Of a stretch of 64,000 bases of DNA, positions 4,816 through 53,050 are shown piece after piece. The position numbers and the translations under genes are program-made. Source of the stretch: Corynebacterium pilosum DSM 20521 = CIP 103422 (lineage in GTDB: Bacteria; Actinomycetota; Actinomycetes; Mycobacteriales; Mycobacteriaceae); contig NZ_KB892438.1 in the NCBI RefSeq assembly GCF_000373805.1, forward strand, positions 174,018-238,017, given 5' to 3'. Every line of letters begins with the position of its first letter. The first letter of the stretch is position 1. A model generated the notes under the pieces. That model saw only the letters and a program-made list of their open reading frames with translations, did not search any database and was not told where the DNA came from.

Positions 4816-5559
4816 TTAGTAACGGACGACCGAGTGAATTGGCATGTAGTGCAGTGGACGCTCAGCCACTGGGGTGCCGGAGTTCAGTGCGTCGATCATG
4901 ACACCGTTGCCCGCGTAGATAGCAACGTGGGATGCGCCACCGTAGTAAACGACGATGTCGCCTGGCTGGATCTGGTCCAGAGGAATCTTCTGGCCGTCTG
5001 CTGCCTGAGCACCGGAGGTGCGTGGGATGCTCTTACCCGCCTGAGCATAGACCCAGGAGGTGAAGCCGGAGCAGTCGAAGGCGTTAGGGCCCGCTGCACC
5101 GTAGACGTAAGGGGATCCGATCTTCGAACGTGCGATGTCCACGATCTTCTGGCCGGTGGACTGCTGAGCGACTGGCGCTGGCGCTGGAGCCGCTGCGGCA
5201 GCTGCATAGGTAGCTGGTGCAGGTGCGTGCTGTGCCTCAAGCTGATCCAGGAAAGCTGCGAAGCCTGGGATCTGGGTTGCGCCGGGGATGGCACGGACCT
5301 GGGAGATAGCGGAACGCACATCGCCGTAGTACGCGTTGTTGGTCTGGATGGAAGGGATCCACTGCTGGATACCTGGGATGTTCTCAATACCTGGAACGTT
5401 CTCAATACCTGGAACGTCGAAGGAAACAGGGGTACCTGGGACGGTAACCTCAGCTGCGGACGCGGTAGCTGGTACCAGGAGCGTCGAGCCCATGACCGCT
5501 GCGGAAACTGCAGCGACCTTGCGTGTAGTGTTCTTGTCCTGGCGACGGTGCTTAGCCAC
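4816..5559 (-). CDS. Secreted NlpC/P60 peptidoglycan hydrolase under c-di-AMP riboswitch control
   Basis: A 247-residue exported protein. It has a signal peptide (about 1-35, ending near ASAAEV), then a short repeated linker with tandem V/I-P-G-I-E-N units, an Ala/Pro-rich linker, and a C-terminal NlpC/P60 domain from about residue 135. The catalytic Cys is in NAFDCSGFTSWVYAQ and the His is in ASHVAIYAGN. It is the counterpart of corynebacterial cg2402. The GTG start lies 8 nt after GGAG. A ydaO/yuaA riboswitch occupies the leader, so its expression should respond to c-di-AMP, in line with other actinobacterial wall-hydrolase genes. Confidence 0.88.
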   Translation of the reverse strand: MAKHRRQDKNTTRKVAAVSAAVMGSTLLVPATASAAEVTVPGTPVSFDVPGIENVPGIENIPGIQQWIPSIQTNNAYYGDVRSAISQVRAIPGATQIPGFAAFLDQLEAQHAPAPATYAAAAAAPAPAPVAQQSTGQKIVDIARSKIGSPYVYGAAGPNAFDCSGFTSWVYAQAGKSIPRTSGAQAADGQKIPLDQIQPGDIVVYYGGASHVAIYAGNGVMIDALNSGTPVAERPLHYMPIHSVVRY

Positions 5560-5582
5560 GAATAATCTCCATATCTTCCTGC

Positions 5583-5740
5583 AATGCCTACCGAGTTAGC
5601 TGACGGGTTCGGTGAGGAAATCACCTTTCCTTATTTGCAGCTCCAGGCGGAGCCTGCCCTACTAAGGAATTCACCCCAGGGATATCAATTGGGTCCCCGG
5701 CTCCCGCTCTGGCGTTGATGCCCGAACGAGATTCGGCAAT
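5583..5740 (-). promoter_or_regulatory. Cyclic-di-AMP riboswitch (ydaO/yuaA class)
   Basis: Read on the minus strand, the leader contains the conserved blocks of the ydaO/yuaA class in order: GCCGAATC, CCGGGGACCCA, GGGGTGAATTCC, TAGGGC, CCGAACCCGTCAGCTAAC and TCGGTAGGCA. It ends about 25 nt before the GTG of the NlpC/P60 gene. The class is known to bind c-di-AMP and commonly precedes peptidoglycan hydrolase genes in actinobacteria, usually turning expression off at high ligand. The identification rests on recalled consensus blocks, not on a covariance-model search. Confidence 0.9.
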
Positions 5741-5750
5741 ATATGTTCAG

Positions 5751-5778
5751 TTCGTACTTTGCGTCCGGTTGGTCGCAA
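5751..5778 (-). promoter_or_regulatory. Possible promoter for the riboswitch leader
   Basis: On the minus strand TTGCGA (5773-5778) is followed after 16 bp by TACGAA (5751-5756). A start about 7 nt downstream would be just ahead of the riboswitch. The match to the corynebacterial SigA consensus is only moderate. Confidence 0.35.
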
Positions 5779-6217
5779 TGTCTCGATAAGGTTACGAAAC
5801 TGCAACAAAGTTTGTCCAGTGACGCGCCCGTTATCTTTCTGTCATTTATTTTTTTGCGGCAATCACTTTCTTTTCGCTAATTGGCATGTCACTAAAACTT
5901 TCAAGCTCGGCTTTGTAAAAACGTTGTGACCTGCGCCTTCCGGGACGGCAGTTAACCAACTCAAGACCTTCGCAAACTAAGTTTCATTAAATTTCGAAGA
6001 TTCAATCAGCAGTGTGACGTTTCTCACATAGATCAGGTTTGGCTACCTTTTGGGCGGTAACGCGGGACTCCAGGGCCCGATACGTCGACCATAAACACCA
6101 GTTTTTACCGTTCCGTTATCTAGCCCCAACGGAAGCAGGACTCCTAAGCCGAGCCAAATGAATTCCCTGGCCAACATTCGTGACTTTGCGCACTCCGCCT
6201 TCCCTTCGGTGCACATT
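5779..6217. other. Long intergenic stretch between the NlpC/P60 gene and the lyase operon
   Basis: About 440 bp, visibly A/T-rich from 5830 to 6010, without a credible gene. A 58-codon frame beginning at 6159 runs into the lyase gene and looks spurious. It contains one GlxR-type site (6013-6028). The segment 6050-6180 has several G/C-rich short dyads that I cannot assign. Confidence 0.5.
6013..6028. promoter_or_regulatory. GlxR (CRP-type) binding site
   Basis: TGTGACGTTTCTCACA is a perfect match to both half-sites of the GlxR/CRP consensus TGTGA-N6-TCACA. It lies about 450 bp before the NlpC/P60 start (minus strand) and about 270 bp before the lyase start (plus strand), so it could act on either gene. 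GlxR is the cAMP-responsive global regulator of corynebacteria. Confidence 0.65.
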
Positions 6218-13118: not shown

Positions 13119-13960
13119 GAGCGCGATCCAATCCACATAGCAGCGGCGCCGATCAAAGTGACGCCAATCATCCACATAGCAAGACCCTCAGAGACAGGTC
13201 CAAGGCCGCCGAGTGCGTATCCCGAAGGGCTTGGAGTCTCCTTCGAGGACTTCACAAAGGCAATGATGTCCTTCTTCTCGTCAGCGGTCAGCTGGCGATC
13301 AGAGAACTTCGGCATGTTCTGCGGGCCGGTCAGCATAGCCTGGTAGATCTCCTGCTCGTTGGCAGGGTCAAGCACAGGCGCGTACTTACCGGAGGACAAA
13401 GCGCCGCCACGGCCAGTGAAGTTGTGGCAGGACGCGCAGTTGGTACGGAACAGCTCGCCGCCGCGGGCGACGTCTTCAGACTGAATCTGTCCGTTGTAGT
13501 TCTTACCGCGCAACTCCTCCATTGCGAGGGTGCCGTCTTCGTTGTACACCAGCTCTGGGCCACCGCCGTTAGCGGCGACATATGCGGCAAGAGCGAGCGA
13601 CTGCTGCTCGGTGTAGCGAGGCTGCTTACGCTCTGCCTGAGCATCGTTCGACATCATCGGCATGCGGCCGGAGTGCACCTGGAAGTACACGGCACCCTCG
13701 CCGACGCCGATCAGCGAAGGGCCACGGTCCTTGACACCTTGCAGGTTCGCGCCATGGCAGGTGATGCAAGCAACGTCGTAGAGGTCCTTGCCCTCTTGGA
13801 TCAATGCTTGCTCATCACGCTGAGCCGTCGCAACCTGCGCGTCAGGGGTCAGAGCCGAGGCCAAGATGCCTGCGCCGGTCAGGCCAACGGTCAGGGCCGC
13901 GGCACCGGCGACTGTGCGACGAACCTTGCGGTTGCGCACCTTCTTCGGGTTCTTTTCCAT
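13115..13960 (-). CDS. qcrC: Cytochrome bc1 complex dihaem cytochrome c subunit
   Basis: A 281-residue membrane-anchored protein with two haem c motifs, ACITCH and NCASCH, as is typical of the actinobacterial QcrC that replaces a soluble cytochrome c. There is an N-terminal signal/anchor helix (about 15-35) and a C-terminal membrane helix (about 255-275). The ATG at 13960 is chosen because AAAGGG lies just upstream; an in-frame TTG at 14005 lacks support. Confidence 0.95.
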
Positions 13961-14011
13961 CTTTTTCCCTTTAGCGACTATGTATTGATTCGTTTTCAGA
14001 CCCAATGGTCA

Positions 14012-14632
14012 TTACTGGACTAGGTACAAGGTGATGAACACGCCGACCCAGATCACGTCGACGAAGTGCCAGTAGTAGGAGGTCACCATTGCGGCAGTTG
14101 CCTGTGCCGGTGTGAACTTCGACTTCGACACACGAAGCATCACGACGATGAAGGCGATGATGCCTGCAGTCACGTGAGCCATGTGGAAGCCGGTGATGAT
14201 GTAGAACACCGAACCATAGACACTGCTTTGGACAGTTACACCATGGTGGATCATCTCGTACCACTCGAAGGCAACCAAGCCCAGGAAGATTACGCCGAGA
14301 ATGATCGTGATGGTGAACCATTTCCTCAGTCCGTAAACGTCACCCCTTTCCGCTGCGAAGACGCCGAACTGCGAGGTGATGGAGGAGGTGACCAGGATTA
14401 CGGTGATAATCAAACCGTAAGTCACGTTCAGATTTGCGGTCTGAACCGCCCAGTCACCTGTCGCCATGCCATTCGCACGCGATGTGAAGTACATCGCGAA
14501 GAGCCCAGCGAAGAACATCAATTCCTGCGCAAGAAACAGGATGGTACCCACGCTGACCATGTTTGGTCGGTTCAGCACGGGCACACGCTGTTGCTGCGCA
14601 GCCGTATTGTCATTAGAAATTGCGCTCGTCAC
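14012..14632 (-). CDS. ctaE: Cytochrome aa3 oxidase subunit III
   Basis: The product has about 206 residues from the GTG at 14632, with five membrane helices and the subunit III block NRPNMVSVGTILFLAQELMF. The start is uncertain. The GTG matches the N-terminus of known corynebacterial CtaE (TSA..., then Q-R-V before the NRPNM block) but has no clear Shine-Dalgarno sequence. An ATG at 14656 has AAGGTG upstream. It heads ctaE-qcrC-qcrA-qcrB, the standard actinobacterial bc1-aa3 operon. Confidence 0.92.
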   Translation of the reverse strand: MTSAISNDNTAAQQQRVPVLNRPNMVSVGTILFLAQELMFFAGLFAMYFTSRANGMATGDWAVQTANLNVTYGLIITVILVTSSITSQFGVFAAERGDVYGLRKWFTITIILGVIFLGLVAFEWYEMIHHGVTVQSSVYGSVFYIITGFHMAHVTAGIIAFIVVMLRVSKSKFTPAQATAAMVTSYYWHFVDVIWVGVFITLYLVQ

Positions 14633-38832: not shown

Positions 38833-39022
38833 GTTGCGGGGGTTGCCGTGGGTGGACAGCCCCCTCATTTACCGGGCTAAGAAATTAGACAACATCTAAC
38901 GGGGAGTTTCTCCCTATTGAGCCCCGTTAGGCTTCCCTTCAGATCGTGAAAGACTTGGTTGTCATTCGACGTACCAGCCTTTAAACTGGATGTTGATTAC
39001 ATATCTGAAAGGAGATGAGAAA

Positions 39023-39172
39023 ATGGGCACTCCGGACCAAATAGCGAAAATTCGGGTCGAGCCAGATACCACTGATTTAGAACCTACTCCAGATGCTCGC
39101 CGTCTTCTTATTGAAGAACTCAGTGAAGAGGTCGCAGCATGGTCTGCTGAACTCAATAAACGGCTGGCATGA
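39023..39172 (+). CDS. Putative antitoxin of a Doc-like toxin-antitoxin pair
   Basis: A 49-residue acidic protein (MGTPDQIAKIRVEPDTTDLE... ending NELNKRLA-like: LNKRLA). AAAGGAG lies 8 nt before the ATG. The last codons overlap the following toxin-like gene as ATGA, the usual coupling of antitoxin and toxin. No recognisable DNA-binding fold can be read; the C-terminal half looks like an amphipathic helix that could cover a toxin active site, as Phd does for Doc. The identity depends on its position. Confidence 0.6.
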   Translation: MGTPDQIAKIRVEPDTTDLEPTPDARRLLIEELSEEVAAWSAELNKRLA

Positions 39173-39852
39173 TCGACTATCTGTCCGGCGACGATGTCAT
39201 TGTCGCCGGCACCGCTGCTTGCGGTTTTGAGCCGCTCATAACCCAACCTGCCCAGTTCGAAGCGAATGTCGCTCGGCCTGCCACGATGTACTTCGGTCAA
39301 GAAGCTTTCCCGACTCTTTGGACAAAAGCTTCTGCGCTCCTCCATTCATTCGCAACAACTCAGACTCTTGCCGACGGAAATAAGCGCACTGCCTGGGCGA
39401 GCTGTTGGCTGATGCTAAGACTGAATCATGCAATCGGCAGCTTCACAAATCCGCTAAATACCAATGCTGCCGAAGACCTCGTTCACCGTGTTGCCCTAGG
39501 TAGATGCAGTATTGAAGAGATAGCTGACACCCTCCATCAATTCGTTTATCCGCAGCTAGGTATTTACGGAAAGCTACCCGCTGGGTTTCAAATTTCGCGA
39601 AATCTATCGGAATTCGGACAATCTATGGTCGGGGTGGGAAAAATCCCAGACGGCACTTCATTAGTTTACGTTTATCTCGCCAACCTAGATTCTTCAATTT
39701 TAAAAATTGTTATGACACCCGCCGAAGCAAGGAATTTTGCTAAGCATATTTACTCGCTTGTTGAGCATCGAGATAACAGCGAAACAGTCCGCAGCTTCGA
39801 GCTATCTGTTCAGGGTTTTCTCCATCATTCCGATCTTGCCAACGGCATTTAA
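39169..39852 (+). CDS. Doc/Fic-like toxin with altered active-site loop and extra C-terminal domain
   Basis: The 227-residue protein begins like the death-on-curing family and has the core LWTKASALLHSF... followed by TLADGNKRTAW near residue 78. The Fic/Doc catalytic loop HxFx(D/E)GN(K/G)R is recognisable from DGNKR, but the catalytic His position is Gln (TQTLADGNKR). Doc toxins are about 126 residues; here about 90 extra residues follow, of unknown fold. The gene is visibly richer in A/T than its neighbours, consistent with transfer. It could be an inactive Doc, or a variant with another chemistry. Confidence 0.72.
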   Translation: MIDYLSGDDVIVAGTAACGFEPLITQPAQFEANVARPATMYFGQEAFPTLWTKASALLHSFATTQTLADGNKRTAWASCWLMLRLNHAIGSFTNPLNTNAAEDLVHRVALGRCSIEEIADTLHQFVYPQLGIYGKLPAGFQISRNLSEFGQSMVGVGKIPDGTSLVYVYLANLDSSILKIVMTPAEARNFAKHIYSLVEHRDNSETVRSFELSVQGFLHHSDLANGI

Positions 39853-40495: not shown

Positions 40496-41904
40496 GTGAA
40501 GCTGGCCAGATTAAGCAGTGCGGCCGTAGCGCTCATCCTCGCGGCCCAGCTTGGCGTCGCACCAGCTCAAGCCATAGAAATTCAAGCCTCGTGCCGGCCG
40601 CTGCATCTGCTGCAAGCCGGTGGCACGGTTATGTCGAAACGCTTCCACACCCCGGTGCCCCAACCGATTTTCGACAATGGTTTTAACCCCGCCGACGAGC
40701 TGCAGCAGACTTTCGGGGCGCGCAATGTCGGCGGCTACAACATTTCCTACCCCAGTTCTCTTGGGGCGATCAGCGCGTTGCATGGCGATGAGTTCGGCTT
40801 CGAAATGTCCACGTTCGGAGAATCGCGCATGGCTGGCATCGACACTGCCATCGGCGAGGTGGAGATGATTGCCAAATCCTGTCCTGACACGAAATTCATC
40901 TTCTCCGGATATTCCCAAGGTGCCGCGGTGGTGGGCGGGCGCGTATCGACGAGCACCCCACCGAACCTGCAACCTCACACCTGTACGGACCCGTCCCACC
41001 TGACGTGATGGGCCGCAACGGGGAGATCATCAATGGTGGCGGAACCGGCGTGCACCACGAACGGGAAGGAATGGCAGGTCCGCGTGAGCGTGATTTCGCA
41101 GGCCTTGAGGGCAAAGTGTTCTCGCTGTGCAACTCGGGCGACTTGTCGTGCTCCGCACCCCACGACTCTTTAATCCAAGCGGTCGCGGGCTACGCTTCGC
41201 GCATTGAGATGGAAGGCCCTGGCGATATGCAGTCGGGCCCCATTCTCAAGGATTTTCTGGACCAGGTCCTCAGCGGCGTGGAGCTAGAAGAGGCCATCGA
41301 GGCTTCCGGTATGGGTCCAGCCCAGATCTCGGCGATCGCGGCGATCATCGTGGAGCTCGCCAATTACGGCGATATCGCCTACACGCATTCTGGCAACGGG
41401 CTGACACCGGCTGAGTTTTTCGGCCTCATCACCATTTCCGCGTTACCCAACCTCATGCACAAGGCCGTGACCGCCGAATATTTAGGCGAGCTCCTAGAGG
41501 CCATCGCTGGAATTTTTGAGGACTCCGCCCCGGATACAGCCGCATGGATCAGGGTGATCGTCGATACGCTCTATGCCCTCGAAGCCACCGAAACCCTCTA
41601 CAAAGACGTCTCTTATGCAGGCCACCTCCCGCGGGTGACCACACCCACCGAGGCGCGCCAATACGCCACGCGTGAGGCAACGTCGGCGCTGATGAACGCG
41701 GTGGCCACCACCACGGGATTGGACGCAGCCCTTGCTGATCCGAAGCGAGCCAACACGGTGGTTACCGCGCAGCTCGCGGGCGATTTCGGCCTGAAACACA
41801 TGAGTTATTACAAAGGCGGCAACCTCATCGAGGGCCTCCACGGGCAAGGCTACGTGCAACGATGGCTGGAGGCCGTCACCCACGGGGTGCTTCACGACGA
41901 CTAA
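40496..41904 (+). pseudogene. Cutinase-like serine esterase, frameshifted
   Basis: Frame one (40496-41008) gives a signal peptide (ending APAQA), then the nucleophile motif FIFSGYSQGAAVVGG near residue 145. It is lost about 25 residues later by a stop. A second frame resumes within about 40970-41005 with YGPVPPDVMGRNGEIINGGG, the conserved continuation in corynebacterial cutinase-family proteins, and includes the Asp/His region NSGDLSCSAPHDSLIQ. The segment that usually carries the ADP-type strand between these blocks appears missing, so a small deletion plus frameshift is likely. The intact parts suggest recent inactivation or a sequencing indel. Confidence 0.8.
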
Positions 41905-51655: not shown

Positions 51656-52984
51656 TTAGATATTGAAGTTGGTGGCTAATTCCCATTCGGTGATCTGGTC
51701 GGTGTACTCGCGCCATTCGCGCCACTTGGAACGCAGGAAGTATTCGAAGACCTGCTCGCCGAGCACCTCCGCCATGAATTCAGACTTTTCAAGGTGGCGC
51801 AGCGCCTCATCCAGGCTGCCGGGCAGGTCGCGGTAGCCCAGGGCGCGGCGTTCCCGGCGCGTCAGTGCAAAAACATCGTCTTCGGCGGGTTCGGACAGCG
51901 GGTATTCCTCACGGATCCCCTTCAACCCCGCGGCCAAGATGGCGGCGTAGGCCAAGTAGGGGTTGGCCCCAGAGTCTGGGGAGCGCACTTCCACTCGTCG
52001 TGATGCGGGCTTGTTCAGGCGGTACGTCGGCACGCGCACCAGCGCCGAGCGGTTGGACACACCCCAGGTCACGGCGGTCGGCGCCTCCGCGCCGAACTCG
52101 AGGCGCTTATAGGAGTTGACGAACTGGTTAGTCACCGCGGAAATCTCGTGCGCGTGCACCAGGATTCCCGCGATGAAACGGCGGCCCGTAATCGACAGCG
52201 AAATCTCATCATCCGGATCATGGAAGGCGTTGGCGTTGCCCTCGAAGAGGGAGAAGTGGGAGTGCATCGCAGATCCCGCATGCTTCTGGAATGGCTTGGG
52301 CATGAAGGTGGCGCGCACGCCGGAATTCGCCGCCACCGTCTTGATCAGGTAGCGGAAACTGACCACGTTGTCGGCCATGGTCAGCACGTCCGCGTGCCGC
52401 AGGTCGATCTCCTGCTGGCCCGGCGAGGTTTCGTGGTGGGAAAACTCCGTGGTGATGCCCATGGCCTCCAGGGCGTGAATCGCTTCACGACGAAACTTCG
52501 GCGCCCGGTTATACGCTGACTGATCAAAGTAGCCGCCGTCGTCGACCGGTTCCTCCTTATCCTCGCGGCTGACCAGGTAGAACTCAATTTCTGGGCCCAC
52601 GTTGCAGGTGAAGCCTTCGTCGGCAGCCTTGTCCACCTGACGGCGCAACACGTGACGCGGATCGGAAAAGGACGGGTTGCCGTCCGGCATGGAAATGTCG
52701 CAAAACATGCGCGCGGAAATCAGGTCCGGCTCGTCGGCGTCGAAAGGCAGGATCTGGAAGGTGGAGGGGTCCGGCAAAAGCAGCGTGTCGGATTCGCTGA
52801 TGCGGGAAAAGCCTTCGATGGAGGAACCGTCAAAACCCACGCCCTCCTCGAACGCGCCTTCCAGTTCGCTGGGGCTCATCATGACAGACTTCAGCGAGCC
52901 GGAGATGTCAGTAAACCAGAGGCGGATGAATCGGATACCACGTTCTTCAACCGTGCTAAGGACATATTCCTGTTGGCTATTCAT
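51656..52984 (-). CDS. glnA2: Glutamine synthetase-like protein GlnA2
   Basis: A 442-residue GSI-alpha-type protein with GFDGSSIEGF, the FMPKPFQKHAGSAMHSHFSL metal/ATP block, and the NRSALVRVPTYR segment. It lacks the adenylylation loop of GlnA: the equivalent place reads DVFALTRRE without Tyr, so GlnE should not modify it. C. glutamicum and mycobacterial GlnA2 occupy the same position; reported activities differ and mycobacterial GlnA2 is dispensable. It is divergent from the CYTH/CHAD gene. Confidence 0.93.
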   Translation of the reverse strand: MNSQQEYVLSTVEERGIRFIRLWFTDISGSLKSVMMSPSELEGAFEEGVGFDGSSIEGFSRISESDTLLLPDPSTFQILPFDADEPDLISARMFCDISMPDGNPSFSDPRHVLRRQVDKAADEGFTCNVGPEIEFYLVSREDKEEPVDDGGYFDQSAYNRAPKFRREAIHALEAMGITTEFSHHETSPGQQEIDLRHADVLTMADNVVSFRYLIKTVAANSGVRATFMPKPFQKHAGSAMHSHFSLFEGNANAFHDPDDEISLSITGRRFIAGILVHAHEISAVTNQFVNSYKRLEFGAEAPTAVTWGVSNRSALVRVPTYRLNKPASRRVEVRSPDSGANPYLAYAAILAAGLKGIREEYPLSEPAEDDVFALTRRERRALGYRDLPGSLDEALRHLEKSEFMAEVLGEQVFEYFLRSKWREWREYTDQITEWELATNFNI

Positions 52985-53050
52985 ACCTCCGACTGTAGCG
53001 TTTCGCGCCGACTAGCATTATGGGAAAAGCACCCCGAAAGGCAGGACCCC

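Follow-up and report, generated by a model that had tools for sequence, protein, structure and literature searches.

Background

In Fic and Doc enzymes, the histidine of the Fic motif is regarded as the catalytic base. We analyse here a two-gene module of Corynebacterium pilosum DSM 20521 in which a Doc-like protein carries a glutamine at this position. The module lies in a stretch of 64,000 nucleotides of contig NZ_KB892438.1 (positions 174,018 to 238,017), hereafter called the window, whose own numbering is used throughout. It is ordinary in kind, a Doc-like pair in a mobile stretch of DNA, and its active site is uncommon, having been documented once, in silico. That report described from sequence, in 2015, a Doc clade with glutamine (D2) and remarked that it is perhaps not catalytically dead (PMC4454073, Sci Rep 2015 5:10804). 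No experiment on a Gln-Doc protein was found among the open papers searched. AvrB is also without the motif histidine (PMC2686095), and it is an enzyme that carries out rhamnosyl transfer (PMC10866546).

The most likely reading of the C. pilosum pair, to which we give a probability of about one half from the comparison of sequences, is that it is a mobile module of the type II toxin-antitoxin kind, belonging to the Doc/Fic group, whose Fic site has been rebuilt and would still be active.

The Doc-like protein and its active site

The Doc-like protein has 227 residues (39169..39852, plus strand, as are all parts of the pair) and was recognised from its open reading frame (ORF), Pfam, phmmer, a structural model and a fold match. 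The Pfam family Fic/DOC (PF02661) matches residues 28-83 with 32.3 bits (E 1.9e-7), above the gathering score of 24, and the narrower NCBIfam model TIGR01550 (DOC_P1) falls short of its cut-off of 38.65 with 22.8 bits. The Fic/Doc domain proper comprises residues 1-126 (39169..39546), most of which were modelled by AlphaFold2 (22 sequences) with a predicted local distance difference test score (pLDDT) of about 95, against about 50 beyond. Over residues 2-127, the model superposes on P1 Doc with a Z of 16.3 and a root-mean-square deviation of 2.3 for 119 residues, the best match to a solved structure; the other Fic proteins reach a Z of 7.5 at most, and the first non-Fic row a Z of 4.3. The entry at the top of this fold search is itself a His-less mutant, DocH66Y. 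Matches to PADLOC PDC-S23 (E 3.5e-5) are confined to residues 29-91.

The active-site loop reads QTLADGNKRT (39361..39390). Pfam gives the Fic/DOC motif as HxFx[D/E]GN[G/K]R, with a catalytic histidine, whereas the window protein has QTLADGNKR at this place, and phmmer aligns Gln65 (codon CAG, 39361-39363) with the motif histidine of Doc and with that of 9vzc. The preceding residue is a threonine, so that alignment puts Thr64-Gln65 (39358..39363) where most of the His-Docs seen have Asn-His or Asp-His. A preliminary description of the pair had already recognised a Doc/Fic-like toxin that keeps the DGNKR loop and has a glutamine at the invariant histidine, which Pfam, phmmer and the fold superposition all bear out. 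The extra residues that it placed after the Fic domain are indeed present, but they number about 100 and not 90.

Glutamine is fixed in one clade of Doc proteins

Similarity searches blind to the motif brought together 13 distinct Gln relatives, the window protein included (the repeats L031, L032 and L058 are excluded). All 13 have a threonine before the glutamine and retain DGNKR. They include proteins of Gordonia phage ObLaDi, Gordonia plasmid pGKT1, Mycobacterium marinum pRAW, Tsukamurella pTpau01 and a M. fortuitum plasmid.

A tree was computed for 63 Doc domains of actinobacteria, with the trait column omitted and the root at the midpoint. In it, the window protein falls in a clade of ten rows that all have glutamine (support 99/95) and that come from Corynebacterium, a Gordonia phage and plasmid, and mycobacterial plasmids. 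This clade stands within a larger set of 19 rows that is itself supported (98/95), the remainder being seven His rows and two Arg rows; with a midpoint root, the placement of the Gln clade inside this set is likely, not proven. One of the similarity searches contributed the loci of the best 30 of the matches that it listed, so the tree covers the better-scoring relatives, and a search that required Thr-Gln supplied 20 of its 63 rows, including three of the window clade. Rows scoring less than 85 bits and rows whose motif could not be read were excluded, as were duplicates (L031, L032, L058, L102, L034, L158, L166, L191, L194-L197) and fragments (L003, L004, L123). Further Gln rows occur elsewhere in the tree. 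A single origin of the Gln rows (31 of 32, L053 being left out, with the motif columns omitted) is disfavoured, though not firmly (p-AU 0.037).

Within the window clade, the glutamine codon is CAA in five members and CAG in the other five; the histidine codons CAT and CAC are not found there. The ratio of non-synonymous to synonymous substitution rates (dN/dS, NG86) is 0.03-0.13 in 13 of 16 Gln pairs giving an estimate (pairs at least 62% identical, eight Gln rows) and 0.05-0.26 in pairs of the His lineage, odd tips included; many of the dS values exceed 1, so that the ratio can be relied on for being low but not for its exact size, and the window protein itself has no relative close enough to be tested in this way. 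Judged from these sequences, selection on the Gln clade is purifying. Thus, the opinion given in the preliminary description, that the pair is maintained and its glutamine no accident, is upheld by the fixation of glutamine in a clade of ten, by purifying selection and by the threonine at the preceding position.

Threonine and glutamine come together

Across 246 genomes of the phylum, a pattern admitting either histidine or glutamine had 41 matches, 40 with a His codon and one, that of the window, with a Gln codon; among the 40, L211, if not others too, sits in a frame of 38 codons and is probably due to chance. A preponderance of histidine among homologues had been named beforehand as the mark of a dead copy, and the outcome is split: histidine does prevail among the motif matches of the phylum, while glutamine occupies the site throughout the window clade. 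The same pattern, applied to 151 genomes from the family of Lysinibacillus macroides, gave eight matches, every one with a Gln codon, including one in a 37-codon frame that is probably due to chance. Of these 49 matches, 38 were fetched and examined for the residue before the histidine or glutamine. Threonine precedes glutamine in all eight Fic frames, the window included, and asparagine does so in the 37-codon frame; asparagine or aspartate precedes histidine in 25 of 29 matches, and threonine in one. The glutamine is thus part of a Thr-Gln unit.

Losses of histidine confined to a single tip are seen in six rows of the His lineage: L037, L044 and L052 (Arg), L048 (Tyr), L057 (Asp) and L053 (Gln). 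One of them, L044, is 97% identical to L043, which has histidine. All six keep the asparagine before the lost histidine, at the position where the Gln clades have threonine. Asparagine kept before a lost histidine might be a sign of a truly dead Fic protein, and Thr-Gln that of a rebuilt one.

A scan for Thr-Gln-xxx-DGNKRT detected at least 117 stretches in genome contigs and 5 in viral contigs. Among the 122 matches listed, 117 belong to Fic-like frames 90 or more residues long, distributed over 13 named phyla or candidate divisions, several of which have one match. The survey keeps copies (L158 and L166 repeat L002 and L004, and L177 equals L191), and, as it selected for Thr-Gln, it measures breadth and not frequency. 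An upstream [ST]xxxE[GN], the form of the Fic inhibitory motif according to PMC5651007, is present in 30 of the 76 listed frames that have the glutamine at position 140 or later, some of these occurrences being probably due to chance with so short a motif. Such an inhibitory motif would be pointless if the protein had no nucleotide site. Longer Thr-Gln Fic proteins, some with an inhibitory-like motif, are found in Bacillota and other phyla (L082, L086, L088, L097 and about 70 more listed).

It is conceivable, although we lean against so broad a view, that Thr-Gln in place of Asn-His or Asp-His constitutes an alternative working Fic site, which would have more than one origin, occur in several Fic architectures and about a dozen phyla, and perform transfer without a general base. 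The window clade would then represent a switch inside an ordinary His-Doc lineage.

The partner protein

The sequence AAAGGAG (39008..39014), read directly as a ribosome-binding site, stands at normal spacing from the ATG (39023) of a gene for a 49-residue partner (39023..39172). The ORFs of partner and toxin overlap by ATGA, which gives the pair the layout of a type II toxin-antitoxin system, that is an overlapping two-gene operon with the small protein first; a small gene upstream is also present in most of the annotated relatives inspected. Both ORFs, their coordinates, the strong ribosome site and the ATGA coupling are as first described. From its ORF, the overlap and the partners of relatives, the small protein is a putative antitoxin, apparently without the DNA-binding-like front that its relatives have. 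Its C-terminal tail, WSAELNKRLA (39140..39169), is the probable toxin-binding helix, tails like WSAELN(R/K)RLA being found in the partners of both His-Docs and Gln-Docs.

Compared by eye, the partners of the mycobacterial Gln-Docs (L061, L067, L078) and of many His-Docs consist of a DNA-binding-like front and a SAELNRRLA-like tail, whereas those of the window, L002, L059 and L060 retain the tail behind a different front. Partner frames were usable for part of the rows, and the tails of L061 and L064 were read directly from the DNA. The partner of L070 is annotated as ribbon-helix-helix, a label that presumably applies to the fronts of the partners of L061, L067 and L078 as well. Searched as a 60-codon reading from 38990, the window partner has no match in Pfam, NCBIfam or PADLOC; one weak PHROG match (E 0.015) is to a family of unassigned function.

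In Salmonella cells, Doc is counteracted by the C-terminal part of Phd that consists of residues 52-73 (PMC9207808). A partner of 49 residues could therefore suffice and, by analogy, that of the window is probably a neutraliser without autoregulation.

The C-terminal domain

The Fic domain is followed by a domain of about 100 residues (39547..39849) that is not assigned to a family. Relatives of this domain (residues 127-227) were found in 4 of 242 genomes of the genus, its own included, and each stands behind a Gln-Doc (window, L002, L003, L004). The L002 copy is intact, and its protein is the same as that of L158 (Corynebacterium sp. HMSC036D02). Four further genomes of the genus match the domain profile at E 0.04-0.08, which was treated as chance. 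The profile has no match in plasmids and phages and no confirmed relative in viral contigs, chromosomes outside the genus not having been searched with the domain alone.

Of the 13 Gln relatives, four carry the window-type domain and five end without one; the other four have a longer extension, in which the domain profile finds no match. Co-occurrence of the glutamine and the C-terminal domain, raised in the preliminary description, is thus not borne out; the existence of short Gln-Docs without an extra domain shows that the domain is not the reason for the glutamine, and a coupling of the two was rejected on this ground. The longer extension resembles DUF6941 in three of five such Gln-Docs scanned (L102:6581-7417, L081:1163-2053, L154:3832-4677), exceeding the Pfam cut-off in L102 only. 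Proteins of similar size from Gordonia phages and Rhodococcus plasmids (L063, L065, L066, L071) have partners of 47-61 residues.

The window copy of the domain has no match in Pfam. PHROG 7723 matches the L002/L158 copy (E 0.005 and 0.025), but not those of the window and L003, and was not used. A weak model of the L158 copy (pLDDT 63) shows four strands, then helices. A fold search with this model placed PUR repeats first (Z 7.5, 82 residues), below the meaningful level, and there was no viral match under E 0.04.

Genomic setting

The pair has a G+C content of 0.489, against 0.602 for the window, in agreement with the A/T-richness noted earlier; a value equally low occurs in 0.36% of the stretches of equal length (10-base steps). 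Stretches of this length with a G+C of 0.51 or less are also present at about 5000-6000 and 13500-14500. The pair is flanked by a gene that we take, from its sequence, to encode glutamine synthetase (glnA) and, on the other strand, by a pyridoxamine-phosphate-oxidase-like gene. Promoter- and terminator-like sites occur at chance level only. A protein search of the organism's own genome found this copy alone.

Of the 14 glnA loci of relatives that were fetched, ten were compared, and one of these, L274, was discounted as it stops shortly after the gene. In the nine relatives that are left, the downstream side of glnA, covered for about 1.5 kb, is without the pair. None of the other three copies in the genus is beside glnA or the oxidase gene that flanks the window pair: L002 adjoins a gene with integrase-core domains, and L003 a gene that we take to be deoC-like. 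The Gln-Docs carried by phages and plasmids are accompanied by their own partners.

Two other regions of the window may be mentioned. A second glutamine-synthetase-like ORF (51659-53011, minus strand) is 33-36% identical to the glnA products of relatives. At 40496-41904, an ORF resembling cutinase (Pfam Cutinase, E 1.5e-11, over model positions 17-98 of 173 only) is followed by a second ORF, in another frame and without a Pfam match; a frameshift may have divided a single gene into these two.

An active site or a binding protein?

If the rebuilt site is active, the toxin would still bind a nucleotide-charged cosubstrate and transfer a group onto a cellular target, Gln65, together with Thr64, positioning the attacking group by hydrogen bonds where a histidine would deprotonate it. 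The C-terminal helix of the partner, laid on the toxin, would keep it off, as Phd does with Doc. The partner would not repress its own promoter, because its DNA-binding part seems to be gone, and the choice of target, or a further contact, would fall to the C-terminal domain.

Several observations weigh against this reading. Doc is non-toxic once its motif histidine is mutated (PMC2686095), and in Campylobacter fetus Fic2, which has another degenerate motif, toxicity is still His-dependent (PMC5651007); both findings speak against an easy His-to-Gln swap. In addition, two of the four copies in the genus are broken, L003 by an in-frame stop in the Fic part and L004 by truncation and frameshift, which indicates that hosts lose the domain-bearing gene readily. 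When the whole motif is omitted from the alignment, the window clade stays in the best tree, but with its support reduced to 83/74. Finally, the loop residues that are kept could serve nucleotide binding without transfer.

The main rival is a pseudoenzyme. The Gln form would act by binding, be it to the cosubstrate, to the old target or, as a sponge, to the antitoxins of His-Docs, and would be kept for that. We take this seriously without favouring it. The non-toxicity of Doc without histidine (PMC2686095, as above) agrees with it, and the conserved loop residues and partner tail would be needed by a binder or a sponge as well. A sponge, however, would have nothing to act on in the organism's own genome, where the search returned this copy only; Gln-Docs carry their own partners on phages and plasmids; and the paired change to threonine is not expected from mere loss.

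That the protein performs Doc/Fic chemistry at a lower rate, the glutamine being a tolerable substitute that weakens toxicity, seems to us improbable. Residual activity is cited in PMC4454073 both for a Fic domain whose His was changed to Ala and for an alcohol dehydrogenase with a His-to-Gln change, which gives this reading some credit, but the fixation in ten members and the same Thr-Gln in distant Fic groups suggest more than a weakened enzyme. Still less probable is a dead copy that lost its histidine by chance and is on the way out: scattered losses do occur (the Arg of L044 beside the His of L043), half of the genus copies are broken and histidine is kept in 40 of the 41 phylum matches, but a lone dead copy was rejected in view of the glutamine in ten of ten clade members, written with both of its codons, the low dN/dS among those testable, and a threonine before the glutamine where the six scattered losses keep asparagine.

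A Gln clade whose close relatives keep histidine, and whose antitoxin tail is similar to theirs, offers a direct test of the need for a base. Annotation would gain as well, for a large group of Fic proteins on which no test turned up among the open papers searched.

Comparison with known systems

The window pair shares with P1 Doc/Phd (PDB 3dd7, 3k33) the fold over residues 2-127, the D-x-N-K-R loop and a small upstream partner, to which a helical neutralising tail can probably be added. It differs by the glutamine in place of histidine, the threonine before it, about 100 extra residues, a DOC_P1 score below the cut-off and a partner that apparently has no DNA-binding part. Doc is a kinase that modifies EF-Tu by phosphorylation of a threonine. 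The actinobacterial His-Docs of Gordonia phage DatBoi (L062) and pGKT2 (L069) are among its nearest His relatives and have a similar partner tail, but theirs is an Asn-His site, and their antitoxin is longer, with a DNA-binding-like front. AvrB resembles the window protein in having a Fido fold without the motif histidine and is yet an enzyme; its motif is more divergent overall, whereas the window protein keeps DGNKR, and the two show no sequence link and a fold Z of 7.2. A parallel in the active site is the Doc clade D2 (PMC4454073), in which glutamine likewise replaces the catalytic histidine in a retained bacterial clade. Unlike D2, the window protein has a leucine (Leu67), not Phe or Tyr, two residues after the glutamine, as do all ten members of its clade; this clade groups with His-Docs, and a further difference is the additional domain of the window protein.
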